Source: Kordia jejudonensis
GTDB taxonomy: Bacteria; Bacteroidota; Bacteroidia; Flavobacteriales; Flavobacteriaceae
Assembly (NCBI RefSeq): GCF_001005315.1
Contig: NZ_LBMG01000037.1
Location: forward strand, 1 to 64,000
Direction: 5' to 3'
Length of the DNA stretch: 64,000 nt
The first letter of the stretch is position 1. Each line of letters starts with the position of its first letter. Position numbers and translations under genes: made by a program. Positions 1 to 57,382 of this stretch are shown here, piece after piece. Under the pieces are notes generated by a model, which saw nothing but the letters and a program-made list of their open reading frames with translations, made no database searches and was not told the origin of the DNA.

Positions 1-345
1 GTAACCAAAAGTCTAAAAAGTATTTTATACAGATTAGGATATAATATCAACAAAGGGAAAGATAGATACCTAATAAATCCAGATAAGCGAACCGCATCAT
101 CCACCAAAACAATGAATGATGCTTTATCTTTAGGATTCTCACATTTCTATAAGCAATTAAACACGGATAGAGAATTACAGTTTAAATGCTTACGGAAAAC
201 ATACTTGACCTATCTATCATCTACTTTGAAAGGAGATGCAAAACGTCTATCTTCGCACGCAACAGATTCAGTACTTAAAAAGCATTATATTGACGAGCGA
301 ATCGTAGATAAAGCCATCAAAGAATTAGATATATTTGAAGATTAA
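1..345 (+). CDS. Tyrosine recombinase/phage integrase, C-terminal part (cut by window edge)
   Basis: The frame is open from base 1 to the stop at 345, so the visible part is the C-terminal 114 residues of a longer gene. It shows the end of a tyrosine recombinase catalytic domain: an LRKT segment where the HxxR arginine box normally lies, a downstream SSHATD segment at the place of the second histidine, and KKHYID with the candidate nucleophilic tyrosine. Such proteins cut and rejoin DNA during integration and excision of islands or conjugative elements. The box histidine is replaced (KCLRKT), which occurs in some Bacteroidetes integrases. The call rests on this short motif order, and the rest of the element would lie to the left of the window. 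Confidence 0.65.
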   Translation, partial: VTKSLKSILYRLGYNINKGKDRYLINPDKRTASSTKTMNDALSLGFSHFYKQLNTDRELQFKCLRKTYLTYLSSTLKGDAKRLSSHATDSVLKKHYIDERIVDKAIKELDIFED

Positions 346-3952: not shown

Positions 3953-6754
3953 TTGCGAACCCTAATAAATGTATTTCTTGTATTGCTTTGCAGTATCTCC
4001 TGCGCGCAGGAATTACCTCCAATACTAAATTATACTCCGAAAACGTACAATGCCGATAATCAGAATTGGATGATTTCGCAATCGAGCGATTCATACATGT
4101 ACATCGCAAACAATAAAGGACTTTTAGAATTCAATGGAGCGCAATGGAAACTCTATAAAACGCCAAACGAAACCATCGTACGTTCAGTAAAAGTGATCAA
4201 TGATAAAGTGTACACAGGATTTTATCAAAACTTTGGTTGTTGGATTCGAAACGATAAAGGAATTCTAGAATACACATCCTTAAGTGATCAATCTGAAATT
4301 GAAATTCTAGAAGATGAACAGTTTTGGAATATTGTACAGCTCGATAAATGGGTGCTTTTTCAATCATTAAGCAGTATTTACAGTTACCACACGGAAACGA
4401 AAGAGTTCAAAGTAATCCGCGTTGACAACATTCTTACAAAACTCTATAAAATTGACGAAGAACTTTACTTTCACGTTTTAAATGAAGGTTTATACACGAT
4501 AGAAAACGGAGAAAAGAAACTAATCAATGATGATCCTGTTCTAAAAAATGATCGTATTGTTGGTTTTTTTAGACAAAATAAGAAAAAACTAATCATAACA
4601 CTTAGCAACGGCTGGTTTCGCTTGGATGATAACGGATTAACGGCAGTAACACTACCATACCAAGAGACAAACAATCAAAAAAGTATTTATACCAGCATAC
4701 AGTTGAGTGATGGCGGTTTTGTATTAGGAACGATCTCAGAAGGAATCTTACACATTTCCAAAAGCGGAGAATTGCTACATCAAATAGATCAGGCAGACGG
4801 ATTGAGTGATAATACCGCATTATCTTTATTTGAAGATGCAGAAGGAAATATTTGGGTCGGATTGGACAATGGAATTGACTGTATCAACCGAAAAGAACCA
4901 TTTAAATATTTTGCAGATCAAAAAGGACGTCTTGGAACTATTTATGCGTCTATCATTCATAATGGATATGTGTATTTAGGCACGAATCAAGGATTATTTT
5001 ATAGAAAAGAAGGCGCAAAAACAGCATTCAAATTTGTAGAAGGTACAAAAGGACAAATATGGTGTTTGCGTGTCATTGATGACGAATTATTCTGTGGACA
5101 CGATTTAGGAACATTTTTGATACAACAAGGAACACAACGAAAAATCTCAAATGTATTGGGCGCATGGGACATTAGAAAAGTTCCAGGAAAAAGCAATATG
5201 TTCATTCAAGGAAATTACAAAGGACTATATCTATTTACAAAAGAAAATAATACTTGGCAGTTAAGTCACAAACTGAAGAATTTCAACATATCATCCAAGC
5301 ATTTTGAATGGATTAGTCCCACAAAAATCTTGATGAATCACGAATACAAAGGTGTATACGAATTAGAAATCAGTGAAGACTATCAAAGCGTTATTGCTGT
5401 GAAAAAAAATAATGACGTTCAAAAAAGTGCCAACTCTAGCCTTATCCAATTCAGCAATACCATTTATCAAGCCAATAAAAATGGTATCTATGGCTATGAT
5501 GTTGCAAGTGCTACTTTCAAAAAAGACACAATTCTCAGCAGTATTTTTGAAAATGATGAATACACATCAGGGAAATTAGTGGTCGATAATGTGGGCTATT
5601 TATGGGCTTTTACCAAAAATTATATCAATTATGTAACGAAGGAAAAGCTCAACGGAAATTTTAAAATCAATAAAATAGCTATTTCAGAATCATTGCGAAA
5701 TGAAATGAAAGGCTATGAAAACATTGCACATCTTAAAGGGAAAAATTATTTGCTAGGAACTTCTGATGGCTACATTACCATCAATTTGGACGAAATGCAC
5801 GTTGTAGATTATGAAATTAGTATAAACAACATTACAAGTACTTCGCTCGTTGGCGGAATGCGCAATATAGTGCTAGGAGAAGAAGGTGATTTCAAAGCAA
5901 AAGAGAACTATTTGTCATTTGCATACAGTATTCCTGCTTACAACAAATACGAAGTTGCAGAATATTCATATCATTTAGATGGATTATACGAAGGTTGGAG
6001 CGATTGGAGTACGAAGCCAACAGTAGCGTTTGAAAACTTACCACATGGCAATTATACCTTTAAAGTAAAGGCACGAATCAACAATCAAGAAACGGTAAAT
6101 ACGGCAAGTTATACCTTTAAGATTAATAGACCTTGGTTTTTATCAAACTTGGCAATTGCCATATATATTATTTTAACCATACTACTCTTTACAGCACTCA
6201 ACGGTTTCTACAAACGATATTATAGAAAACAACGTGAACGCTTGCTCGAAAAAACAACACGTGACTTAGCGCTGAAAGAATTAGAAGCGCAAAAAGAAAT
6301 CATTCAATTAAAAAATTCTCAGTTGAACAGCGACATAGATGCTAAAAATCGTGAACTAGCGATTGCAACAATGAATATGATTAAGAAAAATGAAACACTC
6401 AACAGTATAAAGCAAGAACTCAACAAGCAAAAAGGCGAACAAGGACAAAATGTAACACCTGTAATTCGGTTAATTGATAAAAATATCAACAATGCAGAAG
6501 ACTGGAAATTCTTCGAAGAAGCGTTCAATCATGCAGACAAAGACTTCTTTAAAAAGGTAAAAGACTTGCATCCGCAACTGACGGCTAACGATTTACGTTT
6601 ATGTGCATACTTACGCCTAAATTTATCCTCAAAAGAAATTGCACCACTACTCAACATCTCTGTACGGAGTGTGGAAATAAAACGATATCGATTGCGTAAA
6701 AAAATTAGTTTGGCTCGCGAAATCAACCTAAATGACTACTTTTTAAACCTATAA
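3953..6754 (+). CDS. Membrane-spanning propeller/Y_Y_Y sensor with LuxR-type HTH (laminarin locus regulator)
   Basis: A 933-residue one-protein sensor and transcription factor. Order: signal sequence (MRTLINVFLVLLCSISCAQ), a long periplasmic region of beta-propeller repeats like the two-component regulator propellers of hybrid sensors, a Y_Y_Y domain at about 665-728 (YSYHLDGLYEGWSDW), one membrane helix at about 729-750, a coiled coil at about 755-830, and a C-terminal LuxR-type helix-turn-helix at about 875-920 (LSSKEIAPLLNISVRSVEIKRYRLRKK). No histidine kinase or receiver domain is present, so glycan sensing outside would be passed through the membrane to DNA binding directly. The start is TTG at 3953: no ATG lies within the signal sequence and the frame is closed by a stop at 3914. 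It sits immediately upstream of susC, the usual place for a locus regulator. Confidence 0.85.
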   Translation: MRTLINVFLVLLCSISCAQELPPILNYTPKTYNADNQNWMISQSSDSYMYIANNKGLLEFNGAQWKLYKTPNETIVRSVKVINDKVYTGFYQNFGCWIRNDKGILEYTSLSDQSEIEILEDEQFWNIVQLDKWVLFQSLSSIYSYHTETKEFKVIRVDNILTKLYKIDEELYFHVLNEGLYTIENGEKKLINDDPVLKNDRIVGFFRQNKKKLIITLSNGWFRLDDNGLTAVTLPYQETNNQKSIYTSIQLSDGGFVLGTISEGILHISKSGELLHQIDQADGLSDNTALSLFEDAEGNIWVGLDNGIDCINRKEPFKYFADQKGRLGTIYASIIHNGYVYLGTNQGLFYRKEGAKTAFKFVEGTKGQIWCLRVIDDELFCGHDLGTFLIQQGTQRKISNVLGAWDIRKVPGKSNMFIQGNYKGLYLFTKENNTWQLSHKLKNFNISSKHFEWISPTKILMNHEYKGVYELEISEDYQSVIAVKKNNDVQKSANSSLIQFSNTIYQANKNGIYGYDVASATFKKDTILSSIFENDEYTSGKLVVDNVGYLWAFTKNYINYVTKEKLNGNFKINKIAISESLRNEMKGYENIAHLKGKNYLLGTSDGYITINLDEMHVVDYEISINNITSTSLVGGMRNIVLGEEGDFKAKENYLSFAYSIPAYNKYEVAEYSYHLDGLYEGWSDWSTKPTVAFENLPHGNYTFKVKARINNQETVNTASYTFKINRPWFLSNLAIAIYIILTILLFTALNGFYKRYYRKQRERLLEKTTRDLALKELEAQKEIIQLKNSQLNSDIDAKNRELAIATMNMIKKNETLNSIKQELNKQKGEQGQNVTPVIRLIDKNINNAEDWKFFEEAFNHADKDFFKKVKDLHPQLTANDLRLCAYLRLNLSSKEIAPLLNISVRSVEIKRYRLRKKISLAREINLNDYFLNL

Positions 6755-6777
6755 AAAACTCAACATCTCTTTTTTTT

Positions 6778-6945
6778 ACCACAACATTACCACAACAATA
6801 ACGTTGTAGTGGACTTTTGTGTGCGGTTTATACTATTTTTTTTATTTGGAGTAATTACTGCGAATGCTTCATAATTGTTAGGTTTATATTGATAAAATGA
6901 TAAAATAAAACCTATTTTTTTGCCATGTATGCTTTTTGTATAGGT
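6778..6945 (+). promoter_or_regulatory. Conserved upstream module of the susC operon (copy A)
   Basis: Three blocks here recur upstream of the second operon at exactly the same spacing: ACAACATTACCACAACA at 6781-6797, a GAATNCTTNANAAT block at 6862 followed by GGTTTANATTGA at 6881, and CATGTATGCTTTTTGT at 6924-6939. The first block holds two CCACAACAWTA-like units 11 bases apart, about one helical turn. A partial inverted arm (GTTGTAGTGG, 6804-6813) follows. The third block lies about 65-80 bases before the susC start and probably overlaps the core promoter. Binding by the upstream HTH regulator is inferred. Confidence 0.6.
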
Positions 6946-7004
6946 GTTTTTTAAGGATTCGTTAACAATTGTAAATAAATTGTCATCAATTAAAAATCAA
7001 CTAT

Positions 7005-10000
7005 ATGAACCGTTATTTAATCATGCTTTCGCTCATGCTTTCCTGTATATGGACGTATGGACAAAACCTTGAGATAAAAGGAAAAGTACTAGAAGAAGGT
7101 ACAGAAATGCCACTTCCAGGAGTTAACGTACTTATCAAAAACACAACACAAGGAACATCTACAGACTTTGATGGACTGTTTACCTTGAAAAATGTTCCTA
7201 CCGGAAGTACACTTGTATTTACTTCAATAGGATTTGCACCGCAAGAAGTTGTGGTAACTTCAAATGAAGAATTAACCGTATTCATGAAAGAAGATGCAGA
7301 ATCTTTAGAATCTGTGGTCGTAATCGGGTATGGTTCACAACGAAAAGAATTAGTTTCTGGATCGTATGCTACCGTTAATGCTGAAACAATTGTGGAGCGT
7401 AACCCTGTCAGAGTGGAAGAAGCACTACAAGGTTCGGCTTCGGGAGTACAAGTAAATGCTACTTCAGGTTCACCAGGTGCCGCACTTAACATTCGAATTC
7501 GTGGTATCACATCTAATGGAGACAACAATCCACTTATAATTGTAGATGGTGTCAATGTTGGAAACGATTTAAGTGTTATTGATCCAAATGACATCGAGCA
7601 AATCAACGTTATCAAAGATGCGAGTTCGGCAATATATGGTGTACAAGCATCAAATGGTGTCATCTTAATTACTACGAAAAGCGGACGTAGAGATTCGGTA
7701 ACGAAATTTTCATACAATGCTTTCTACACAGTACAAGAAACATCAAACACGTTAGACTTGCTAAACGCTTCAGAATATGCAGTATATGTAAATGAAACAG
7801 AAGTTGCGGATGGAAATGCATTACCATTTCCAGACATTTCTTCGCTAGGCGTTGGAACTGATTGGCAAGATGAGTTGTTTACGCAAGCACCATTAATCAG
7901 TCACAGTTTAAGTGCTACAGGAGGTTCTGAAAACATTTCATACGGAATTAGTGGAAGTTACCTAAGCCAAGAAGGTATTATTGCCAGCGACAAATCAAAC
8001 TTTACGCGTTGGACATTAAAAAATAACCTAAGTATCAATCTTACGGAAAAGCTAAAGGTTAATACATTACTATTATACACAAACAGAAAAACAAGAGGAA
8101 TTCCAGAAGGCGGAAGAGGTTCTATATTGTATTATGGAGCAAATGCTTCTCCGCTAACTCCAGTATTTGATGGAACTGACGGTTCGGGACCATCACGAGG
8201 ATTCTCATACATTGGTTCAGAACAAGGAATTGAAATTGTAAACCCGTTTGCAGTAATCAACAATACCTTTAACGAATCAAAAACAAATCGTTTTACTGGA
8301 AAAATAGAATTGGTGTATGACATCATTTCTGATTTAGAAATCACATCACGTTTTAACTTCAACTACGCAGATGTAATTTCACGTTCATACAATCCATTAC
8401 AATATTATGGACCAAACAAAGTACAAAACAATGTAAATGTTGCAAACAATCGATTCATATTAGACACCAATGATGATGGCGATAGAGATGTTTACAGTAC
8501 CGTTAGTGAAAACACTCAAAACTTCTTTGATTACACTTGGGAAACGTTTATCAACTACAAAAAATCATTTGGAGATCATAACTTCAGTGGTTTATTAGGA
8601 ACGTCATTACAAAGTTTTCAATACGACGGAATATTCGCAACAGGTTTCTTAGTAAATGGTCCAGATGCATGGAGCAACGCATACCTAAGCAATACACAAT
8701 CATTCATTATTGATGAAGATGATACGCCAAACGGAGATCCGCAAGACATTCAGCAAACATTAAATGCTACAACAGGAATCGGAGAAGATCGTTTGTACTC
8801 AATATTTGGAAGAGTTCAGTACGATTACAGCGGTAAATATCTATTTTCTGCCATGTTGCGTAGAGATGCATCAACGCGTTTTGGTCCTGACAATAGAGTC
8901 GGATACTTTCCATCACTTTCAGGAGGTTGGGTTGTTTCGCAAGAAGATTTCTTCAAATCAGATTTGATCAATAGCCTGAAAATTAGAGGAAGTTGGGGAA
9001 TCACAGGAAACGACAGAATTGGTAGTTTCCGTTGGTTAGGATTCTTACAAGGAGCCAATGCAGAAGCTACGTATCCTTTCAATGATGTATTGTCATTTGG
9101 AAACGCAATTGGAGCATTATCAAACTCAAAACTACAATGGGAAACCACTACACAATCAAACATCGGTTTTGATATTAGCTTATTTGATCGTAAATTAGAC
9201 ATAAGTGTAGATTACTATAAAAAACGTACAGAAGACTTATTATTAGTGCCAGAAGTATCAGCATTGTTAGGAACAAGCGCTGGAGGAAGTTCTGCACCAG
9301 TAGTAAATGCGGGAATCGTAGAAAACAAAGGGCTTGATTTAGGAATCAATTTCTCGCATAACTTTACAGATGACTTTAGTATTCGAGTTGGATACAATCT
9401 GACAAGTATAGACAACAAAGCAATAGAAGTAAACAATGCAGCAGGATTTTTACCAGGTGGATTATTTGATTTAAATCAAACCACATCACGATTCCAATCA
9501 GGATTACCAATTGGAGCATTCTGGGGATTACAAACAGACGGAATCTTTCAAAATCAGGCAGAAATTGATGCACATGCGGTACAACCTGATGCACAACCTG
9601 GAGACATTCGTTATGTAGATGTTGATGGCGATGGAGTAATTGAATTTGGAAGTCAAGATGATCAAACCATGATCGGAAATCCAATTCCAGAATTCACAAT
9701 GGGATTAAACTTTGGATTAAACTACAAACAGTTTGACTTTGCAACGTCGTTATATGCTTCTATCGGAAACGATATTGCAAGAAGTTACGAGCGTTTCCTA
9801 ACCTACAGTAACAAACCTAGTTTATATCTAGATCGTTGGACAGGAGAAGGAACATCTAACTTTGTGCCAAGAGCATCAACAAATGCTTCTAACAACCGTT
9901 TATTCTCAGACTTTTTCGTAGAAGATGGTTCGTACTTAAGAATACAAAACATTCAAATTGGATACGCATTGCCTGACTCAGTTTTAGAGAAACTTCACTT

Positions 10001-10166
10001 AGACAGATTCAGACTATACTTTGGAGTAAACAATTTGTATACGTTTACAAAATATCAAGGATATAACCCTGATGTATCAAACTCAAGTCCATTAGGAGCA
10101 GGAGTTGATTTAGGACAATATCCATTAGCTAGAACATTTACAACAGGAATCAATGTATCATTCTAA
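7005..10166 (+). CDS. susC: SusC/RagA-family TonB-linked outer membrane transporter
   Basis: Outer-membrane importer for glucan oligosaccharides, powered by TonB and lidded by the SusD lipoprotein encoded next. It is 1053 residues, normal for the family. Features in order: signal peptide ending near 20 (TYGQ), carboxypeptidase-regulatory-like beta domain at 22-95 (IKGKVLEEGTEMPLPGVNV), the SusC signature VVVIGYG at 104-110, a plug domain at about 115-235 with IRIRGITSNGDNNPLIIVDG, and a large beta-barrel ending in a terminal Phe. It begins an operon with susD 10 bases downstream. Substrate specificity for laminarin is inferred from the neighbouring GH16, GH17, GH30 and GH149 genes, not from the transporter itself. 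Confidence 0.93.
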   Translation: MNRYLIMLSLMLSCIWTYGQNLEIKGKVLEEGTEMPLPGVNVLIKNTTQGTSTDFDGLFTLKNVPTGSTLVFTSIGFAPQEVVVTSNEELTVFMKEDAESLESVVVIGYGSQRKELVSGSYATVNAETIVERNPVRVEEALQGSASGVQVNATSGSPGAALNIRIRGITSNGDNNPLIIVDGVNVGNDLSVIDPNDIEQINVIKDASSAIYGVQASNGVILITTKSGRRDSVTKFSYNAFYTVQETSNTLDLLNASEYAVYVNETEVADGNALPFPDISSLGVGTDWQDELFTQAPLISHSLSATGGSENISYGISGSYLSQEGIIASDKSNFTRWTLKNNLSINLTEKLKVNTLLLYTNRKTRGIPEGGRGSILYYGANASPLTPVFDGTDGSGPSRGFSYIGSEQGIEIVNPFAVINNTFNESKTNRFTGKIELVYDIISDLEITSRFNFNYADVISRSYNPLQYYGPNKVQNNVNVANNRFILDTNDDGDRDVYSTVSENTQNFFDYTWETFINYKKSFGDHNFSGLLGTSLQSFQYDGIFATGFLVNGPDAWSNAYLSNTQSFIIDEDDTPNGDPQDIQQTLNATTGIGEDRLYSIFGRVQYDYSGKYLFSAMLRRDASTRFGPDNRVGYFPSLSGGWVVSQEDFFKSDLINSLKIRGSWGITGNDRIGSFRWLGFLQGANAEATYPFNDVLSFGNAIGALSNSKLQWETTTQSNIGFDISLFDRKLDISVDYYKKRTEDLLLVPEVSALLGTSAGGSSAPVVNAGIVENKGLDLGINFSHNFTDDFSIRVGYNLTSIDNKAIEVNNAAGFLPGGLFDLNQTTSRFQSGLPIGAFWGLQTDGIFQNQAEIDAHAVQPDAQPGDIRYVDVDGDGVIEFGSQDDQTMIGNPIPEFTMGLNFGLNYKQFDFATSLYASIGNDIARSYERFLTYSNKPSLYLDRWTGEGTSNFVPRASTNASNNRLFSDFFVEDGSYLRIQNIQIGYALPDSVLEKLHLDRFRLYFGVNNLYTFTKYQGYNPDVSNSSPLGAGVDLGQYPLARTFTTGINVSF

Positions 10167-10176
10167 ACACATCACT

Positions 10177-11643
10177 ATGTATAATAAGATAACAAAAATA
10201 GCACTCGCAATGCTGATCATTATAGGGATACAATCTTGTGATGATTACTTGGAAATATTGCCACCTGGGCAAGAAAACTCAGAAAACTTTTTCAATACGC
10301 CAGACAACTATCAAGATGCACTCATTGGTGTATATGATATTCTATCAACAACGTATTTAAACAACATACTAGGAGAAATTGCTTCTGATAACAGTTTATG
10401 TGGAGGCGAAAGTCCTACAGACGTATTAGATTGGCAACAAATTGATGATATGATTCACACACCTGACAATGGTGCGTTGCGTAGCATATTTCAACAAATG
10501 TATGCAGGAATCAGTAGAGCAAACTACATTGTAGAATTTCAAGACAACTTAGAATTTGACGGAAAAGAACAACTCTTAGCGGAAAACCTATTCTTACGTT
10601 CATACTACTACTTTGAATTAGTAAAGTTTTTCGGAGATGTGCCAATGTACACAGACGGAAGAATCTCTATAGAAGCATCTCAATCCATTGACAGAACACC
10701 AGCAGCAGACGTATACGCGCAAATTGAAATGGATTTAATAAACGCTATTCCTTCATTGCCATGGCAACAACTACAAAATGGTAGAGCAACAAAAGGAGCA
10801 GCTTGGGCATTACTTGGAAAAATATATCTATATCAGGATAAATTTACTGAAGCAGCACAAGCGCTTAATGAAGTAATCAACTCAGGACAATACCAACTTG
10901 TGCAAGATTTCAATACAATATTTCTAAACAATAACGAAAACAACTCAGAATCTGTATTTGAAGTACAATACTCAGGTACACAAGAAGGAGCAAGTTTTGG
11001 CTGTTTCCAATGTGTAGAAGGAAATGTTGCTGTCGGATTCATGGGACCACGTTTTCAAGGTGGAAACTTTACGCCATATGCTTCAGGATTTAGTTTCAAC
11101 ATACCTGTGCAAGCAGTTTCAGACATCTTCCAAGCAGGAGATACACGTTTAGCAGCAACTGTATTAGACATCAATGCATTTGTAGCTTCACGTCCAGATG
11201 TAACCTTCACAGAAGGTTCAGAGCATACAGGATACTTCAATCTAAAATACATTCCGTATGCAAATGATAATGTAATACAAGATGCAAACATTAACCGTAG
11301 TAACAACTACAGAGCAATTCGCTACGCTGATGTATTACTAATGGCAGCAGAAGCAAACTTACGTGCGCCAGCGCCAATAGCAAATCCACAAACATTTTTA
11401 GATGCCATTCGAGATAGAGCATTTGGAGATACAAGCAATAGAATTCCTGCGACACTAGAAAACGTATTAGCAGAAAGAAGAAGAGAACTAGCAGGAGAAG
11501 GACACCGTTTCTTCGACCAAGTTAGAACAGGACAAACGAGCACAATTCCAGGATTTACGCCAGGAAAGAACGAATTATTTCCAATTCCAAGAATCGAAAT
11601 AGAATTGGCAGGTAACCGTTGGGAACAAAACGCAGGATATTAA
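10177..11643 (+). CDS. susD: SusD/RagB-family glycan-binding lipoprotein
   Basis: Surface lipoprotein that caps the SusC barrel and binds the oligosaccharide before import. The N-terminus is a lipoprotein signal with lipobox IQSC (Cys21), followed by DDYLEILPPGQ, the usual SusD opening. SusD/TPR helices run through the middle (LLAENLFLRSYYYFELVKFFGDVPMYT), and the C-terminal SusD_RagB region includes YRAIRYADVLLMAAEANLR and ERRRELAGEGHRFFDQVR. At 488 residues it is typical in size. An in-frame ATG at 10153 overlaps the susC end and would add eight polar residues before the signal peptide; the ATG at 10177, ten bases after the susC stop, is the better start. Confidence 0.93.
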   Translation: MYNKITKIALAMLIIIGIQSCDDYLEILPPGQENSENFFNTPDNYQDALIGVYDILSTTYLNNILGEIASDNSLCGGESPTDVLDWQQIDDMIHTPDNGALRSIFQQMYAGISRANYIVEFQDNLEFDGKEQLLAENLFLRSYYYFELVKFFGDVPMYTDGRISIEASQSIDRTPAADVYAQIEMDLINAIPSLPWQQLQNGRATKGAAWALLGKIYLYQDKFTEAAQALNEVINSGQYQLVQDFNTIFLNNNENNSESVFEVQYSGTQEGASFGCFQCVEGNVAVGFMGPRFQGGNFTPYASGFSFNIPVQAVSDIFQAGDTRLAATVLDINAFVASRPDVTFTEGSEHTGYFNLKYIPYANDNVIQDANINRSNNYRAIRYADVLLMAAEANLRAPAPIANPQTFLDAIRDRAFGDTSNRIPATLENVLAERRRELAGEGHRFFDQVRTGQTSTIPGFTPGKNELFPIPRIEIELAGNRWEQNAGY

Positions 11644-11674
11644 TAGCTAGAAAGAGAAAACAATACAATACAAG

Positions 11675-13768
11675 ATGAAAATAATAAAATATGTATTCAG
11701 TTTATGTCTTGTCGCACTGTTTGTGTACAGTTGCGGAGAAGACGACAATACCGATTTTGTAAATACGGTAGAAGCGCCTACAAACCTATCTGCAATAGTA
11801 AACATAACGCAGGACAATACAGGTTTAGTAACCATTACACCACTTGGAGAAGGTGTAACAACATTTGACATTAACTACGGTGATGGTTCAGAAGTCGCTT
11901 CAGAAGTTTTACCAGGAAACAATGTAGAACATACGTACGCTGAAGGTACGTACCAAGCAACGGTAACAGGAAAAGGATTAAATGGCGATACAACGACCAT
12001 AACACAGGAAATTGTAGTATCATTTCAAGCGCCACAAAACTTAGTGGTAACCATTGAAAACGATCCAGGAATCTCAAAACAAGTAAACATTACAGCAACG
12101 GCAGACTTTGCTATGACGAATGTAATTGACTTTGGAGATGGAAGCCAGCCAGTTTCAGGAAACATAGGAGAAACAGTATCGTATATTTATGCAGATCCAG
12201 GAACTTATACCATTACGGTAGAAGCCATGGGTGGAGCAATTGCAACGACAACATACACAGAAAGCTTTGAAGTTACAGCTATTGTACAACCATTAGCGGC
12301 AGCACCAACGCCACCAGCACGAAATCCTTCAGATGTAATCTCAATATTTAGTGCTGCATATGACGACTTGCCAAACACCAACTATTTCCCAGATTGGGGA
12401 CAAGGTGGACAAGGAAGTAGTTGGGCTACATTTGATCTTAACGGAGAACAAATGTTACAATACACTAACATTAGCTACCAAGGTATTGCCTTAGCAGATG
12501 GAACTTCAATAGATGTGTCAGGAATGGAATTCTTACACATTGATGTTTGGACAGCTGATGTAGTGACAGATATAGAAACGTCGCTAATCAACGGACCTGG
12601 AGCAGCAACAGAAGCACCAGTAACACGTCCGTTATCAGCAGATTCATGGACAAGTATCGAAATTCCAATATCAGAATATACAGATCAAGGATTATCAGTA
12701 AATGAAATCTTCCAATTAAAATTTGTAGGAACGCCATGGGCAGCAGGAACGGTATTCATTGATAATATCTACTTCTACAAGCAAGCTTCAGGACCAAGCC
12801 CGCTAATCGGTACATGGAAAGTAGCGCCAGAAGCAGGTTCACTAAAAGTAGGACCATCACCAGGATCAGGAGACTGGTTCTCAATTGACGATGCAGGAGT
12901 TGCAGGTAGAGCATGTTACTACGATGATACCTACGTATTTGACGCTAGTGGAGCATTCTCAAATGTATTAGGAGCAGATACTTGGATAGAAGGATGGCAA
13001 AGTGGAGCGCCAGATGCTTGTGGAGCACCAGTAGCACCACATGACGGATCGGCTTCAGCAACCTTTGTGCATGACGAAACCGCAGGAACACTTACACTAA
13101 ACGGAACAGGAGCATACATAGCATTACCAAAAGCAAACAATGCAGGAGAACTTTCAAATCCAGCTGATGCGCCAGCTTCAATAACATACAATGTTACCTT
13201 TATTGATACAGACACCATTGAAGTTGCTATAGAAGCAGGATCAGGTGTGTTCTGGACATTCAAACTTATAAGAGACAGCGCACCAGTTTCACCAATAGTA
13301 GGTTCTTGGAGTATTACACCAGAAGCAGGATCACTTGCAGTAGGACCGTCGCCAGGATCTGGAGATTGGTTTTCAATTGACGATGCAGGAGTAGCGCAAA
13401 GAGCATGTTTCTATGATGATGAATACGTATTTACAAGTTCAGGAACTTTTACAAATGTTTTGGGTGCCGATACTTGGATAGAAGGATGGCAAAGTGGAAG
13501 TGGAGATGCTTGTGGAGCACCAATAGCACCACATGACGGACAACCAGCAACATACACTTACGATGCTGTAGCAGGAACAATAACGCTAAACGGAACAGGT
13601 TCATACTTAGGAATACCTAAGGCTAACAATGCAGGAGAACTTTCAAATCCAGCAGATGCGCCAGCTTCAATAACATATGGAGTTACTATTGTTGATAACA
13701 ATAACATTACGATAGAAATAGAAGCAGGTTCAGGCGTATTCTGGACATTTAAACTTACAAGAAATTAA
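11675..13768 (+). CDS. Multimodular surface glycan-binding lipoprotein with duplicated C-terminal domain
   Basis: A 697-residue lipoprotein (lipobox VYSC, Cys20) in the third position of the susCD operon, where surface glycan-binding proteins usually lie. It has two PKD-like beta domains at about 38-115 and 118-200 (FDINYGDGSE, VIDFGDGSQ), then a beta-sandwich module at about 212-368 that recurs in other proteins of this locus (starts DVISIFSAAYDD, ends VFIDNIYFYK). Last come two near-copies of a domain of about 158 residues at 375-533 and 539-697, both with GPSPGSGDWFSIDDAGVA and LGADTWIEGWQSG. No catalytic motif is visible. The role is inferred to be holding laminarin at the cell surface. 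Only three bases separate it from the GH16 gene that follows. Confidence 0.8.
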   Translation: MKIIKYVFSLCLVALFVYSCGEDDNTDFVNTVEAPTNLSAIVNITQDNTGLVTITPLGEGVTTFDINYGDGSEVASEVLPGNNVEHTYAEGTYQATVTGKGLNGDTTTITQEIVVSFQAPQNLVVTIENDPGISKQVNITATADFAMTNVIDFGDGSQPVSGNIGETVSYIYADPGTYTITVEAMGGAIATTTYTESFEVTAIVQPLAAAPTPPARNPSDVISIFSAAYDDLPNTNYFPDWGQGGQGSSWATFDLNGEQMLQYTNISYQGIALADGTSIDVSGMEFLHIDVWTADVVTDIETSLINGPGAATEAPVTRPLSADSWTSIEIPISEYTDQGLSVNEIFQLKFVGTPWAAGTVFIDNIYFYKQASGPSPLIGTWKVAPEAGSLKVGPSPGSGDWFSIDDAGVAGRACYYDDTYVFDASGAFSNVLGADTWIEGWQSGAPDACGAPVAPHDGSASATFVHDETAGTLTLNGTGAYIALPKANNAGELSNPADAPASITYNVTFIDTDTIEVAIEAGSGVFWTFKLIRDSAPVSPIVGSWSITPEAGSLAVGPSPGSGDWFSIDDAGVAQRACFYDDEYVFTSSGTFTNVLGADTWIEGWQSGSGDACGAPIAPHDGQPATYTYDAVAGTITLNGTGSYLGIPKANNAGELSNPADAPASITYGVTIVDNNNITIEIEAGSGVFWTFKLTRN

Positions 13769-13771
13769 GAC

Positions 13772-15430
13772 ATGAAACAGATGAAAAATTTTAAATACTT
13801 ATGTACCGCTTTATTTGGTCTTCTGTTGCTAACAGCTAGTTGTCAGGAAGAAGCCACAGTGGGAGATATCATAACACCAACAAATTTACAAGTAACAGCT
13901 ACAATTGTTGGACAAGATGCAAACAATCCTAACGGAGATGGAAGCGGAATGGTTACCTTAAACGCTTCCGCAGATAATGCAATCACATACAGATTTGCGT
14001 ATGAAAGTGATGTAAAAACCAACGCCGTTGGAGAAGCATCATTCATATTCTCTACTTTAGGTGTAAACACATATACTGTAAACGTTATTGCTTACGGAAC
14101 AGGAGGAAACTCAACGTCGACAGCTATTACGGTTGAAGTATTAGCTACATACGCTGCACCAGATGATTTACAAGCCTTGCTATTTGGTTTCGATCCAGCA
14201 AATCCAAATGCAACTACTTCAAAAACATGGAGAATCAAATCTGAACAGGCAGGACACTTTGGTTTAGGACCTGTAGGCGGAACTGTGCCAACAGAATGGT
14301 ATGGTGCTGGACCAGATGAAAAAGCAACCGTAGGAATGTATGATGACAGATATGTATTTTCTTCAGACGGAACATTTACGTTTATCACAGACAATACAAA
14401 TGACGATCCATCTACAGATACATCAGGAACAGTTTTTGGTCGTGATGGTTTAATCAACGAATTAGGCGCCTCAGGTGGAACTATAAATGGTGCGGATGTA
14501 GAAAATCTTCCATTCAACGATTTCAGTGAAGGTTGGGCACTAATTGCACCAAGCGGAGTAGAAACAATTACACTAACAGGAAATGGTTTTATGGGCTACT
14601 ACACAGGTGGATCACATACTTATGAAATCTTTGATCGTTCAGTGCCAAACGAACTCATCTTAAGAACCACAGATGGTAACGGAGAATTCGACTGGTGGTT
14701 TATCATCACTTCGGCAGAACCAGCATCAAATAACTTCCAAACGCAATACAATAACTTAGTTTGGGAAGACGATTTCAATACAGATGGCGCACCGAATGCA
14801 GCAAACTGGACATACGATCTAGGCGATGGCGGCTGGGGAAATGGAGAATCTCAGAACTATACGAATGATGCATCTAACGTAATCGTAGAAAATGGAATGC
14901 TAAAAATTAATGCTATTAAAGATGGATCAGGAAACTATACATCTGCACGATTAAAATCTGAAAACCTTTACGAATTTACCTATGGTAGAGTAGAAGTACG
15001 CGCAAAATTGCCTGCTTCACAAGGAACTTGGCCAGCAATTTGGATGCTCGGAGCGAACTTTGATACCGTAGGATGGCCTACTTGTGGAGAAATAGACATC
15101 ATGGAGCAAAAAGGACAAGATAAAAATACTGTGCTAGGAACAGTACATCATCCAGGTGTGTCGCCAGGAGCTGGAGATTCAGCTACGACATCGTTACCAA
15201 CATCAACTACAGAATTTCATAACTACTCAATTGAGTGGACGGAAACTGAAATTGTTTTCTTAGTAGACGGTTTTGTATTTCACACCGTAACTAATGATGT
15301 AACATTACCTTTTAACAATGATTTCTTCCTCATCTTAAATGTTGCCATGGGAGGAACACTTGGAGGAACTATTGATCCTGCATTTACACAAGATACAATG
15401 GAAATTGACTATGTTAGAGTATATCAATAA
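13772..15430 (+). CDS. GH16 laminarinase lipoprotein with N-terminal accessory domains
   Basis: Endo-beta-1,3-glucanase of family GH16, likely displayed on the outer surface. Lipobox LTASC lies near residue 24. Residues 35-130 form an Ig/PKD-like domain. Residues about 145-320 match the duplicated domain of the preceding protein (TWRIKSEQAG, MYDDRYVFSSDGTF, GEFDWWFIIT). The GH16 catalytic domain is about 325-552, with the active-site strand GEIDIMEQKG: Glu440 nucleophile, Asp442, Glu445 acid/base. Laminarinase-type features include the ARLKSE strand and GTWPAIWMLG. A second Met at residue 4 is an equally possible start. It ends the first operon; a strong terminator follows. Confidence 0.9.
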   Translation: MKQMKNFKYLCTALFGLLLLTASCQEEATVGDIITPTNLQVTATIVGQDANNPNGDGSGMVTLNASADNAITYRFAYESDVKTNAVGEASFIFSTLGVNTYTVNVIAYGTGGNSTSTAITVEVLATYAAPDDLQALLFGFDPANPNATTSKTWRIKSEQAGHFGLGPVGGTVPTEWYGAGPDEKATVGMYDDRYVFSSDGTFTFITDNTNDDPSTDTSGTVFGRDGLINELGASGGTINGADVENLPFNDFSEGWALIAPSGVETITLTGNGFMGYYTGGSHTYEIFDRSVPNELILRTTDGNGEFDWWFIITSAEPASNNFQTQYNNLVWEDDFNTDGAPNAANWTYDLGDGGWGNGESQNYTNDASNVIVENGMLKINAIKDGSGNYTSARLKSENLYEFTYGRVEVRAKLPASQGTWPAIWMLGANFDTVGWPTCGEIDIMEQKGQDKNTVLGTVHHPGVSPGAGDSATTSLPTSTTEFHNYSIEWTETEIVFLVDGFVFHTVTNDVTLPFNNDFFLILNVAMGGTLGGTIDPAFTQDTMEIDYVRVYQ

Positions 15431-15455
15431 TTAATTTATTTTGATACAGCTACAC

Positions 15456-15520
15456 AACTTGCCATAACTATTTGTTCTTTTTTCATGTCGATGAAGAACA
15501 AATAGGGCAAGTTTTTTTTT
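15456..15520 (+). terminator. Rho-independent terminator of the susCD-GH16 operon
   Basis: A long inverted repeat: AACTTGCC, a 4-base bulge, then CTATTTGTTCTT on the left arm, and AAGAACAAATAG then GGCAAGTT on the right, followed directly by a run of T. It lies 26 bases after the GH16 stop and separates the two operons. Confidence 0.88.
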
Positions 15521-15668
15521 AATCCATTTTTAAAAAACAACAGATACAATTCATATAAATAGCAACCATTATAGAACGACATCGATTTCGTAATTTTTTT
15601 AAGAATATATCAAATAGGCGATAAAGCCTCAATACAAAGGTTTTATATGTATCCAACAGGCGATATAA

Positions 15669-15846
15669 CCACTACAACATTACCACAACATTTTGCTAAA
15701 CAGCTGTAAAACAAGGGTTGTGTTAAAAAAATATTAAAAAAATAAATTCATTAAGAATCCTTTAAAATCAAGGGGTTTAAATTGAGTATAATCAAATTTT
15801 TCGTTGTTTTTATTATCATGTATGTTTTTTGTTGTGGTTATTTTTG
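15669..15846 (+). promoter_or_regulatory. Conserved upstream module of the second laminarin operon (copy B)
   Basis: In the 592-base gap before the 16023 gene, the same three blocks found before susC recur: ACAACATTACCACAACA at 15674-15690, GAATCCTTTAAAAT at 15755 with GGTTTAAATTGA at 15774, and CATGTATGTTTTTTGT at 15817-15832. Offsets from the first block are 81, 100 and 143 bases in both copies. A TATTTTTG box (15839-15846) matching the Bacteroidetes -7 consensus TAnnTTTG lies at the end. About 180 bases of untranslated leader would follow. Apart from this module and the terminator, I see no gene in the gap. Confidence 0.6.
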
Positions 15847-16022: not shown

Positions 16023-19000
16023 ATGAAAAAAACCTTTCTAACTTTAGCACTGATTTTTTTAACGACATCTATGTTTGCACAAGCAGATAAAGTTGTGGTT
16101 CAAAAAAATGATCAAGGCATGAAATTGGTTGTTAACGGAAAAGATTTTATGATCAATGGTATGAACTGGGATTATGTACCTATTGGTTCTACAATTACAG
16201 ACCCTGGAATCTGGAACAGATCAGACGATGTGATCATGTCAGCTTTGGATGCTGAAATGATGCTACTAAAAAACATGGGTGTCAACGCAATTCGAACGTA
16301 TGGATTAAAACCAAAATGGATTACATACATCTATGAAAATTATGGTATTTACACCATGTTAAATATTACTTTTGGTGCATACGGACTTACAATTAATGGT
16401 GCATGGACGCCACAAACAGACTATGCTGATCCAGCAACGCGTGAAATTTTAATGACTGAAGCCAGAGAAATGGCAGAAACATACAAAGACACGCCAGGAT
16501 TACTACTCTACATGATTGGTAATGAAAATAACTATCACTTATCGTGGACGGGAGCAGAAACTGAGGCAATTCCAATAGAAGGAATCGATTCAAACAAAAT
16601 AAAAGCAGCACGTGCTTTATACAAAGCGTTTAATGATGCTACACTAGAAGTTAAAAAATTGGATACATCGCATCCAGTTGCAATTTGTAACGGAGATTTA
16701 TTATACATAGACTTGGTAAAAGAAGAATGTAAAGACGTTGATATCTATGGTACAAACATGTATCGAGGAGTATCATTTGGTGATGCATTCAAAAGAGTCA
16801 AAGATGAACTCAACATGCCAATATTATTTGCTGAGTTTGGTGCAGATGCTTTCAATGCGAGAGACAATAAAGAAGATCAGTATTCACAAGCATACTACAT
16901 GACAGGAAACTGGAAAGAAATTTATGCCAATGCTGCTGGCTTAGGAAAAGCAAATAACTCACTTGGAGGATTTACGTTCCAATTTTCAGACGGATGGTGG
17001 AAATACCTTCAAACAAAAAACTTAGACGTACATGATAATGTCGCAGTATGGCCAAATGGCGGGTATTCTCGCGATCAAGCCAATGAAGGAGATTTAAACA
17101 TGAACGAAGAGTGGTTTGGTATCTGTGCAAAAGGACCAACTGATGCAAGAGGTTTATATACATTATATCCACGTGCAGCATATTACTCATTAAAAGAAGC
17201 ACATCAAATAGATCCATATGCTCCTGGAATGACAGCTGATTTTCTTTCAACTCATTTTGATAATATCCAAATTATGGATGCTGTCCTAAGAGCTAGAGGT
17301 GACAAAGCTGCCATGGGCGGTGGAAGTAGTCAAAAAATAAGAATCAGCCAGCTTAGAGCTGAATTCACAACATTCAACACAGGTGGAAGTCTTCTAACAA
17401 CACCGAACAATCCTGATCCAGACGAAAATGCATTTCCAAATCAAACCGGTTTTGATCATATGCAATCGTACTTCATAGGAGTGGAAGGAAATCCTGCTCC
17501 AAACATGAGAGCAAACGTAAACTTTAACATTATCGGACGTGCTGCTGAAAATCCAATCGATGAAATATTCTATGAAAACAGAAATCGACAAGTCATCGTA
17601 AACGGAAATGGAGAAGAAGTAATATTAAACGATATCAATCGTGTAAATGTATACAACGCAGAATTTGAATGGAATGCTAAAGATTTCGATCTTAGAGGTT
17701 TCTATCGTACAGGACATTACCATTGGGGATATGAAGGAGATATCTTCGGATTATATCCAGAAGCAAATTATGGCCCTAACTTAGACATCTATGGTGGTGA
17801 AATTTTAGGAATAGAAGTAGATGGTAAAGGAGCATTAAAAGGTGCAAAAGCTGCATTTGGTCCACAACTTTGGTGGGGAGCCAATCCAACAATGCTTTTC
17901 AAATACACAAAAAATATAAAAGGATGGGACGTAACGGGAATCTATCACAGAGATGTAAACACAGACCTCGAATTTGACGAAACTGGACGTCGTGTCTTAG
18001 ATCAAAATCAAATACGAAGTGGTGTTATTCCTGCATGGCCAATGGAAAGAGCAACCTTAGCTTTGGAGCGTGACTTTGGAAAAGTTGGCGTACAAGTCGG
18101 AGGAATCTGGGCAGGAAATCCACTTAACGGAAGTGTATACCAAGATGTAAGAGGAACTTCAGGAAACTATACGGTAGTTGAAGACAAGGTTAAATCTACT
18201 GATAATTGGGGAGCAAAAGCAAAACTGACTTATGCAGGTGGACGTTTCAATATATACGCACAAGGTTCCGTAATGGGATTAGTTGCCAATGGAGGCGCTG
18301 ACCAAACACAAACATTTACAGGATGGAGATTAAGAGACTCAGGAAGTGGAAACATGACCAACTTCTTATCAGGTTTCACATATACGTTTGGAGACTTCCA
18401 AATTGCACCAAACTTTATGTGGCAAAAACCATTAGTAGATGCAATGCCAACCGACGCACCAGCACCTGGAAGATTACGAAATGTAATTGATGATCCATTT
18501 GCAGTACGCGGTGGAAACCGAGAAATGACAGCAGGAGAAATCCTTTTCACCTATGATCCAACACCAGGAACATGGATGTATGAGTGGAATAACGATAGAG
18601 CAGAAGACGCAAAATTTGCAGCAAACCTCGGATTCGTATTCCGTCACTTACCAACACAACAAGATGCACACATTGGTTTCAATGCCAATCGTACATTCTT
18701 TGCGTTCCCAAGTACCGTAGCTGCTGAAGACTTATGGGAAATCAACTCACGTATGGTGTCAAAAATATCGCCAGAACTTGGAATCATTGGTAATTTCTAC
18801 TACGGAAATGCGCAGGCTAATGGTGATGATTCACGATTAATCAAACGATTTGGAGCTGATGTTAGAATGATCTATAACAAAATTCAAGTAATGTCTCACG
18901 TTAAAATTAACGATTGGGGACCATTTGATTACCATAGAGATTTCAACTTAACATACCCAACACAATTAATGTTAGATGTATCTACATCACTTGGTAAGCC

Positions 19001-56236: not shown

Positions 56237-57382
56237 ATGAACGTAACTACGATATTGAGTCATTTGGTAAGTTTTCCTGTCTTGGGCGGCGAAAGTAATT
56301 TGAGTATTATTCATTGGATTCAAACATATATAGAATCGCATGGAATTACCACAACATTGGTTCCAAATGAAGAAAATACCAAAGCTTCGTTGCACTGTAG
56401 AATTGGTCCTGCGGTTGATGGAGGCGTCATCCTTTCTGGTCATACTGACGTTGTACCCGTAAAAGGGCAAGTTTGGCATACAGATCCTTTTACCTTAACT
56501 GAAAAAAATGGTAAACTTTACGCACGTGGAAGTGCTGACATGAAAGGTTTTGTAGCGTGTTGTTTGGCTGTTTTACCAACAATGATAAAGGCTGACTTAA
56601 AAAAACCAATCTATTTTGCATTTAGTTATGATGAAGAAATCGGTTGTTTGGCAGCTCCTGATTTAATAAAACACATCAAAAAAACATACGATGAAACGCC
56701 AACATACGCCATTATTGGCGAACCGAGTTTGTTGCAACCTGTTATTGGTAAAAAAGGAATTTGTTATGTAAAAACGGAAGTCAATGGTTCGGCAGGTCAT
56801 AGTAGCGGAATTCATAAGGAAATTAGTGCCATTCATGAAAGTACACGTTTGATGGTGTGGCTGGAAAATAAAATGAAAACAATGGCGAACACTTCTGTGG
56901 ATGATCGATTTGATCCGCCACATTCTACCATTCATGTTGGACAAATTCAAGGTGGCGTAGCGACCAATATTGTTGCAGATTATTGCAGTTTTGAATGGGA
57001 TATTCGTGTGATTCCAAAAGACAATATTCATCAAGTATTTGAAGAATATTTTGCTTTCTGTGCGGAAAGAGAAGTAGAAGTTCGGAAAAAGTTTGCCGAT
57101 TTTAAGATCAGTAACACATTAATTCATCCGCCAGTTCCTGCATTAGACACGAAAGAAACAGATAGTATTGTTGGTTTGGTGCAAAAATTGACAGAAAATT
57201 ATAAATGGGAAACTGTTGCGTATGCAGCAGAAGCAGGACAATTTCATGAAGCCGGATATGAAAGTATCATTTGTGGTCCAGGAAGTATAGAACAAGCACA
57301 TCGTGCGAATGAATTTGTCACGCAAGAACAATTGGATAGTTGTGTGGTTATGTTAGAAAAACTCATAATGGAGCTAAGTTAA
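56237..57382 (+). CDS. argE: M20-family acetylornithine deacetylase
   Basis: A 381-residue zinc amidohydrolase of the M20/ArgE group. Metal ligands and base are visible in LSGHTDVVPVKG (His and following Asp), YARGSADMKG, the catalytic Glu pair in FSYDEEIGCLA, and the late His in GSIEQAHRANEF. The dimerisation domain includes GSAGHSSGIH. It would release acetate from N-acetylornithine or related N-acetyl amino acids. I start at the ATG at 56237, two bases after the carrier stop; a longer frame reaching back inside the carrier gene is an artefact. Flavobacteria often use a carbamoylated or succinylated arginine route, so the substrate could also be a different N-acyl amino acid. Confidence 0.85.
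   Translation: MNVTTILSHLVSFPVLGGESNLSIIHWIQTYIESHGITTTLVPNEENTKASLHCRIGPAVDGGVILSGHTDVVPVKGQVWHTDPFTLTEKNGKLYARGSADMKGFVACCLAVLPTMIKADLKKPIYFAFSYDEEIGCLAAPDLIKHIKKTYDETPTYAIIGEPSLLQPVIGKKGICYVKTEVNGSAGHSSGIHKEISAIHESTRLMVWLENKMKTMANTSVDDRFDPPHSTIHVGQIQGGVATNIVADYCSFEWDIRVIPKDNIHQVFEEYFAFCAEREVEVRKKFADFKISNTLIHPPVPALDTKETDSIVGLVQKLTENYKWETVAYAAEAGQFHEAGYESIICGPGSIEQAHRANEFVTQEQLDSCVVMLEKLIMELS

Follow-up and report, generated by a model that had tools for sequence, protein, structure and literature searches.

The operators predicted for SusR and SusR2-4 of Bacteroides thetaiotaomicron are described as two conserved sites on either side of a long unconserved spacer (PMC3878776). In that description the sites are direct repeats lying 67 or 77 bp apart, that is six or seven helical turns, three of the five SusR-family regulators are encoded beside susC/D, and motif similarity tracks regulator similarity. 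The sites of Bacteroides hybrid two-component systems (HTCS) are given in the same source as direct repeats ∼21 bp apart that are bound by AraC-like proteins. A further described case of paired sites is that of lac repressor, which uses two operators on one DNA face with an in vivo period near 11–11.6 bp (PMC1762422, PMC5081198). SusR-like regulators adjoin polysaccharide loci of both gut and marine Bacteroidota, and the only operators found described for them are the Bacteroides predictions (PMC3878776). Here we describe a module that stands upstream of two operons of Kordia jejudonensis, in a stretch of 64,000 nucleotides (the window; contig NZ_LBMG01000037.1, our C149, of a 5.36 Mb genome). 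It is likely that this module is the operator-promoter of a SusR-like, membrane-bound one-component activator encoded at 3953, with two sites on the same DNA face and probably a loop between them.

Four blocks stand before the susC operon and before the operon starting at 16023, exactly at the offsets originally predicted: ACAACATTACCACAACA at 6781 and 15674, GAATNCTTNANAAT at 6862 and 15755 (+81 from ACAACATTACCACAACA), GGTTTANATTGA at 6881 and 15774 (+100) and CATGTATGYTTTTTGT (block 4) at 6924 and 15817 (+143). The 11-base repeat claimed for the first block is borne out, and the present analysis supports both the idea that the fixed geometry reflects constraint and that of a putative shared activator-type site. 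By contrast, the assignment of block 4 as the core promoter was rejected: this block carries an inverted copy of the unit found in the distal site (the ‘head’) and forms the proximal site (the ‘tail’), and a −7-like TAnnTT box lies ∼50 bp beyond its start. Neither the inversion of the tail nor the spacing ladder described below formed part of the original prediction.

A genome-wide motif search found exact ACAACATTACCACAACA twice, both times in the window, as against 0.0014 occurrences of this 17-mer expected for a genome of that size at the window's base composition. With up to three mismatches the count (63) did not exceed that of a reversed control (69), so that only near-exact copies are informative. 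The sole copy with one mismatch, on contig C140, was discarded, as it lies within an aspartate-kinase-like gene (named from its translation) with no tail nearby. Similarly, a 62-base model of the tail (block 4) plus promoter, trained on 40 sequences that include both window sites and searched under stricter filters, recovered these two sites and no others from the genome at E ≤ 0.01. Block-4-like matches at C2:11808 and C158:18520 were set aside, having neither head nor −7 box, and the stretch around C135:79765 contained no tail above threshold.

The motif search in related genomes showed that the head is conserved together with the regulator. Exact ACAACATTACCACAACA was found in 19 of 198 genomes, at 26 places (reversed control, one place), and in 10 of the 11 genomes of the same genus, G000 included. 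A regulator match at E ≤ 1e-60 is present in 75 of the 198, among them all 19 with exact ACAACATTACCACAACA. In eight of the nine non-Kordia genomes ACAACATTACCACAACA and the regulator share a contig, within ∼35 kb, and in the ninth (G106) they are on different contigs. The offset from ACAACATTACCACAACA to block 4, 143 in the window, is 142–144 at 15 of the 16 places where the genus has an exact head, and 121 at the remaining one (L019, third module of G008). Other genera depart from 143, mostly by whole helical turns.

Regulator loci (the best 80 of 512 confirmed candidates) were searched with a tail-plus-promoter profile built from the 750 bp after each regulator, and the head was sought in the 330 bp upstream of each tail. 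A simple consensus scan gave 54 pairs in 46 of the 80 loci, but 10 and 15 pairs in the controls, and was replaced by the profile scan because of these high control counts. The tail-plus-promoter profile scored at least 20 in 73 of the 80 loci (reverse-strand maximum −0.4), and a head could be placed upstream of the tail in all 73, in 68 cases above the reversed-sequence maximum of 22.2. A scan of whole loci recovered 103 head–tail pairs (99 distinct upstream sequences) in 105 sequences totalling 2.17 Mb, with none in the reversed control; the profiles had been trained on 73 of the 103 pairs, that is, on loci that they describe. Independent checks are provided by the reversed controls, the exact-match survey, the paralogue clades discussed below and L181, a locus outside the training set with a window-clade regulator, where the spacing is 136 and the −7 box TACATTTA begins 50 bases after the start of the tail (position T). 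Near-matches to the head (L001–L006) yielded no head–tail pair. This layout is found again in many related bacteria.

The first large open reading frame after the regulator in the 80 loci is SusC-like in 64, 16023-like in 11, neither in three and absent in two. The 62-base model matches in 47 of 119 relatives, and the first genes after eight modules that lie away from the regulator encode three GH2_C proteins and five proteins with type IX secretion sorting domains, one of these (L078) from a Kordia genome. From these matches and first genes the regulon is called as probably consisting of a susC operon, a GH2-like operon and sometimes a secreted protein. L078 (G008:C4) is the third module of its genome and belongs to the 126 rung of the ladder. 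In G121 (L025/L031/L075) the head occurs as an inverted pair directly after the regulator, with a weak tail candidate 217 bp off, near a ladder point.

The head consists of units with the core ACCNNNACA at positions −21, 0 and +11, of which that at −21 is more weakly conserved; the second unit of the main pair is found in 66 of the 73 loci and the first in 58. The average head reads ACCTATACATTACCACAACATT and the susC copy in the window ACCACAACATTACCACAACA. The tail consensus is TGTATGTTTTTTGT(T/A)GNGGT, followed by an A/T-rich stretch and TAnnTTTA. If the head unit is laid on the tail region, the best fit is its reverse complement at T+10 (9.0; next best, −6.9), a fit that 3000 permutations of the columns reached at a frequency of 0.0003; in addition, 66 of the 73 loci have TGTNNNGG at T+11. 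On this basis the tail is read as carrying an inverted copy of the head unit, a call made by profile placement, and like the head it shows an 11-bp period within the site. The core ACCNNNACA and the tail element TGTNNNGGT are the predicted contact sites of the regulator's helix-turn-helix (HTH) domain. Between the two sites, the middle element (blocks 2 and 3) is weakly conserved in register with the tail, with peaks near T−36 and T−24, and the part of the spacer adjoining the tail is weakly conserved. Across genera the middle element, from T−64 to T−20, reads roughly TAAAA, then TTTATTGAG, then TAAAAA. At the position of window 6798–6810, most Kordia susC copies carry ATAACGTTGTAGT or a close variant after the head, which resembles an inverted unit and was not seen in the copies before the glycoside hydrolase (GH) operon.

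The distance from head to tail is quantised. In the 73 loci it is 101 (one locus), 114–116 (6), 123–127 (31), 131 (1), 135–138 (20), 146–149 (11) or 172–173 bp (3). The best period is 11.45 bp with R 0.80, where the maximum among 5000 jittered-spacing nulls is 0.50; when each genus label contributes a single locus (n = 43, each unnamed metagenome-assembled genome counting as its own label), the period is 11.5 bp and R is 0.76, the corresponding null reaching at most 0.57. The ladder accommodates 69 of the 73 spacings at a tolerance of 2 bp, and 72 at a tolerance of 3 bp. A single genome, G081, has three modules, with spacings of 114, 126 and 137. In 64 of the 73 loci the head keeps a distance of 23–27 bp from where the regulator match ends, which places the change in length between head and tail. 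For comparison, the in vivo repeat obtained from lac-loop fits is 11.60 or 11.08 bp (wild type), and 10.95 bp when HU is absent, as against ∼10.5 bp for free DNA (PMC1762422, Table 1). The phasing is indirect evidence that both sites may be bound by one assembly.

The predicted promoter keeps register with the tail. A TAnnTT box follows the start of the tail by 50 bases in 67 of the 73 loci, is one base off in five and is absent in L107; upstream of it there is just a T/A-rich stretch at T+23..26. The Bacteroidota sigma-A promoter has a −7 box TAnnTTTG, joined in Bacteroides by a −33 TTTG; at the final position of this box the loci have A in 79% of cases and G in 14%. In the window the predicted −7 box differs in type between the operons, being TAnnTTGY before susC, as in the Kordia loci counted (five, with a one-base shift in one of them), and TAnnTTTA before the GH2-like operon, as in most other genera. 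The two operons may use different sigma factors. TAnnTTGY is described as the SM5 box of Flavobacterium psychrophilum (PMC9723704).

Paralogous regulators bear on the identity of the binder. Twenty loci of regulators ∼29–35% identical to that of the window were taken together with 60 further loci of these clades, and the same layout with another unit was found in 18 of the 20 (not in L179 or L180). After removal of three regulators without an HTH match and of those identical over the last 300 residues, 53 distinct regulators were kept. At limits of four mismatches in the head and two in the tail, with a search pattern that permitted both G and A, 42 of these passed and 11 failed, including all three with other helix residues (IQ, LH). 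Regulators with the helix VET.RYR (clade B) go with TACGTCA, with G in all 23 tail units and in 21 of the 23 second head units, whereas those with VE[IV]HRYR (clade C) go with TACATCA, with A in 19 of 19 and 18 of 19, respectively. The window's own clade (clade A) has VE[IV]KRYR among the 30 loci listed, and the unit ACCNNNACA. Spacings are 105–107 (17 regulators) or 115–118 (6) in clade B and 102–104 (18) or 107 (1) in clade C, and 23 of 26 clade B regulators have their best direct middle unit at exactly +66. That a change of helix among the paralogues goes with a change of unit but not of layout points to the adjacent regulator as the binder. Together with the conserved adjacency, this supports the original prediction's candidate, the 3953 regulator, and both sites most likely belong to this neighbouring membrane sensor.

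Several observations weigh against this reading. Five heads (L107, L116, L117, L132 and L145) score within the null range, and the tail profile failed in seven of the 80 loci. Of these seven, L087 has its module beyond the scanned stretch, L151 and L152 have only degenerate pairs, L088, L089 and L120 have no adjacent module, and in L084 (Kordia aestuariivivens) regulator and nearest module are both kept, ∼10 kb apart. Of 29 class-wide loci from a de novo search (L181–L209), 28, that is all but L181, showed no clear module; one of the 29 had no sequence to scan, and many of the genes are not beside a sugar locus. The tandem pair as a whole also fits the tail best at the same place, less strongly than the single unit (0.005). 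R is also high at 10.5 bp (0.69 for the 73 loci, 0.65 for n = 43), and L145, at 131 bp, is off the ladder. Finally, the correlation between helix and base follows two or three clades and so represents few independent events.

The strongest rival explanation holds that the regulator occupies the head only, that the tail serves as an extended promoter element or is bound by some other factor, and that the phasing reflects contact between regulator and polymerase across bent DNA. The near-rigid register of the tail with the −7 box is in keeping with this, as is a T-run in the tail, TATGTTTTTTGT, that is conserved beyond the need of a second unit. However, the tail contains the inverted unit, it changes with the regulator clade to the same G or A as the head, and no −7 box accompanies the tail-like matches at other places in the genome; we consider binding at the head only to be unlikely.

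Less probable still is that the ladder arose as a by-product of ancestry, or of slippage between 11-bp repeats, without selection for phase. Head units do repeat every 11 bp, and on a FastTree tree of the 73 regulators loci of one spacing class tend to group together (18 changes, 36.7 when shuffled). Nevertheless, no fewer than 18 changes of rung are required on that tree, and the six 114-rung loci by themselves account for six. Edge-disjoint pairs on it that differ by at least 4 bp (n = 17) differ by 9–13 bp in 14 cases and never by 5–8 bp, the others differing by 4, 30 and 37 bp. Twelve of the 17 contrasts lie within 2 bp of a multiple of 11.45 (p 0.004). The remaining five (4, 30 and 37 bp, and 9 bp twice) fall further than that from any multiple and so count against the ladder; a post hoc test on the 15 pairs below 19 bp gave 2e-6. 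The different rungs within G081 also speak against this explanation, and slippage of the array register was dismissed as a cause since the head keeps its distance from the regulator end, which places the change in the spacer. An RNA element, in which complementary head and tail would pair as a long-range hairpin in the transcript, is very improbable. In the second operon tail TGTTGTGGT is the exact reverse complement of head ACCACAACA, but in the susC copy the central bases of ACCACAACA and TGTATAGGT differ, leaving the middle of the stem unpaired, and the hairpin was rejected on this copy; moreover, the head precedes the predicted promoter, and an 11-bp ladder is not expected of RNA.

In the favoured model of two sites bound by one regulator, the protein encoded just upstream of operon 1 would sense laminarin-type oligosaccharides in the periplasm and assemble so that its HTH domains occupy head and tail on one DNA face. 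The intervening 100–170 bp would be held as a small loop at the inner membrane, tail-bound subunits beside the −33 region would recruit RNA polymerase, and the susC/D-GH16 and GH2-like/GH16/GH149/GH17/GH30 operons would be switched on together. Activation rather than repression, and a bent or looped spacer, are presumed. The layout, its conservation, the inversion, the phase, the promoter register and the clade-specific units are read directly from the DNA. It is about as likely as not that the membrane-anchored SusR-type activators of Flavobacteriaceae share one operator grammar, with a unit set by the recognition helix and a loop of 100–170 bp against the inner membrane; its parts would be a tandem of 11-bp units, the same unit inverted next to the promoter, a −7 box that keeps register and a spacing that moves in steps. 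If so, the helical repeat that these bacteria have in vivo (∼11.4 bp) could be read from the evolved ladder. Such a grammar of unit, orientation, phase and promoter register would allow regulons to be called from sequence, tie helix residues to DNA bases, make the mechanism testable by 5-bp versus 11-bp insertions, and bear on how marine bacteria switch on β-1,3-glucan degradation.

As judged from its domain layout and from susC/susD adjacency, the 3953 protein is a SusR-like one-component regulator. It has a signal-like N-terminus, a Reg_prop/Y_Y_Y propeller sensor, one transmembrane segment and a C-terminal LuxR/sigma4-like HTH. In Pfam, Y_Y_Y matches at 3.3e-08 (33.7 bits, cut-off 26.6) and Reg_prop scores 20.1, slightly below its cut-off of 20.4; HTCS sensor structures match the sensor by sequence, and the hydropathy peak at residues 729–747 is the one strong internal hydrophobic segment. 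The HTH begins at about residue 876 (window 6578), and the C-terminal piece matches GerE (0.0015, 18.5 bits) below the curated cut-off of 23.5 and Sigma70_r4_2 (1.3e-4), also below its curated cut-off. No kinase or receiver domain was found at 0.001 in the Pfam scan, and weak response-regulator matches are confined to the HTH end. Among named relatives, those nearest in the regulator protein belong to Kordia, with 70–83% identity in seven loci.

Features of the regulator locus and of the two operator-promoter modules, in window coordinates.
Feature	Start	End	Strand	Basis or detail
SusR-like one-component regulator	3953	6754	+	Pfam domains, hydropathy, HTCS sensor matches by sequence
Third, weaker head unit, susC copy	6757	6765	+	21 bp before head pair; conserved columns −19..−13
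Head (distal) site, susC operon	6778	6797	+	tandem ACCACAACA-TT-ACCACAACA, 11-bp period
Middle block (blocks 2 and 3), susC operon	6862	6892	+	
Tail (proximal) site, susC operon	6926	6945	−	inverted TGTATAGGT at 6937–6945, weaker unit 11 bp upstream
Predicted −7 box, susC promoter	6976	6983	+	TAAATTGT (TAnnTTGY type); T+50 position
SusC-like TonB-dependent transporter, first gene of operon 1	7005	10166	+	TIGR04056 3.8e-253
SusD-like lipoprotein	10153	11643	+	SusD_RagB 7.1e-24
GH16 protein, operon 1	13772	15430	+	
Third, weaker head unit, second operon	15650	15658	+	
Head (distal) site, second operon	15671	15690	+	ACTACAACA-TT-ACCACAACA
Middle block, second operon	15755	15785	+	
Tail (proximal) site, second operon	15819	15838	−	inverted TGTTGTGGT at 15830–15838, reverse complement ACCACAACA
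Predicted −7 box, second operon	15869	15876	+	TAGTTTTA; T+50 position
GH2_C TIM-barrel protein, first gene of operon 2	16023	19196	+	

A PKD protein is encoded between susD (10153) and the GH16 gene (13772). In operon 2 the 16023 gene is followed by genes for GH16 (20690), GH149 (22433), GH17 (25913) and GH30 (27209), the GH149 protein matching 1,3-β-glucan phosphorylase with 1837.7 bits (cut-off 1150). This gene set of susC/D, GH16, GH149, GH17 and GH30 indicates a locus for the use of a laminarin-type β-1,3-glucan, the substrate and the limits of the operons being putative. Elsewhere in the genome, L001 contains at 6430–6964 (G000:C140, ∼56430–56963) a minisatellite that is open in three frames, whose repeats read ARFAFGSLRFWLASLL and which adjoins an aldo/keto-reductase-like gene.

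No description of a Flavobacteriaceae operator with such a layout was found in the open-access literature searched, and the locus is best compared with four kinds of known system. AraC, like lac repressor, is a DNA-loop regulator with helical phasing; both are soluble proteins of other families, and here the phasing comes from evolution rather than from a designed series of spacings. CadC and ToxR resemble the 3953 protein as membrane one-component activators with a tethered DNA-binding domain and a periplasmic sensor, their DNA-binding domain being winged-helix and N-terminal. The module is also like HTCS operators, in that the sensor matches by sequence and tandem sites lie on one DNA face, although the 3953 protein, unlike an HTCS, shows no kinase or receiver domain. 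The likeness to the B. thetaiotaomicron SusR operators, as these are described in PMC3878776, extends to the two sites, the whole-turn distances and the SusR-like regulator near susC/D. Set against that description, the proximal site of the Kordia type is inverted instead of directly repeated, the spacing is 101–173 bp (clade A) or 102–118 bp (clades B and C) rather than 67 or 77 bp, and the Flavobacteriaceae module has a −7-type box in near-fixed register, while the direct middle unit of clade B, at +66, lies near the 67 bp of the Bacteroides operators and stands besides an inverted tail.

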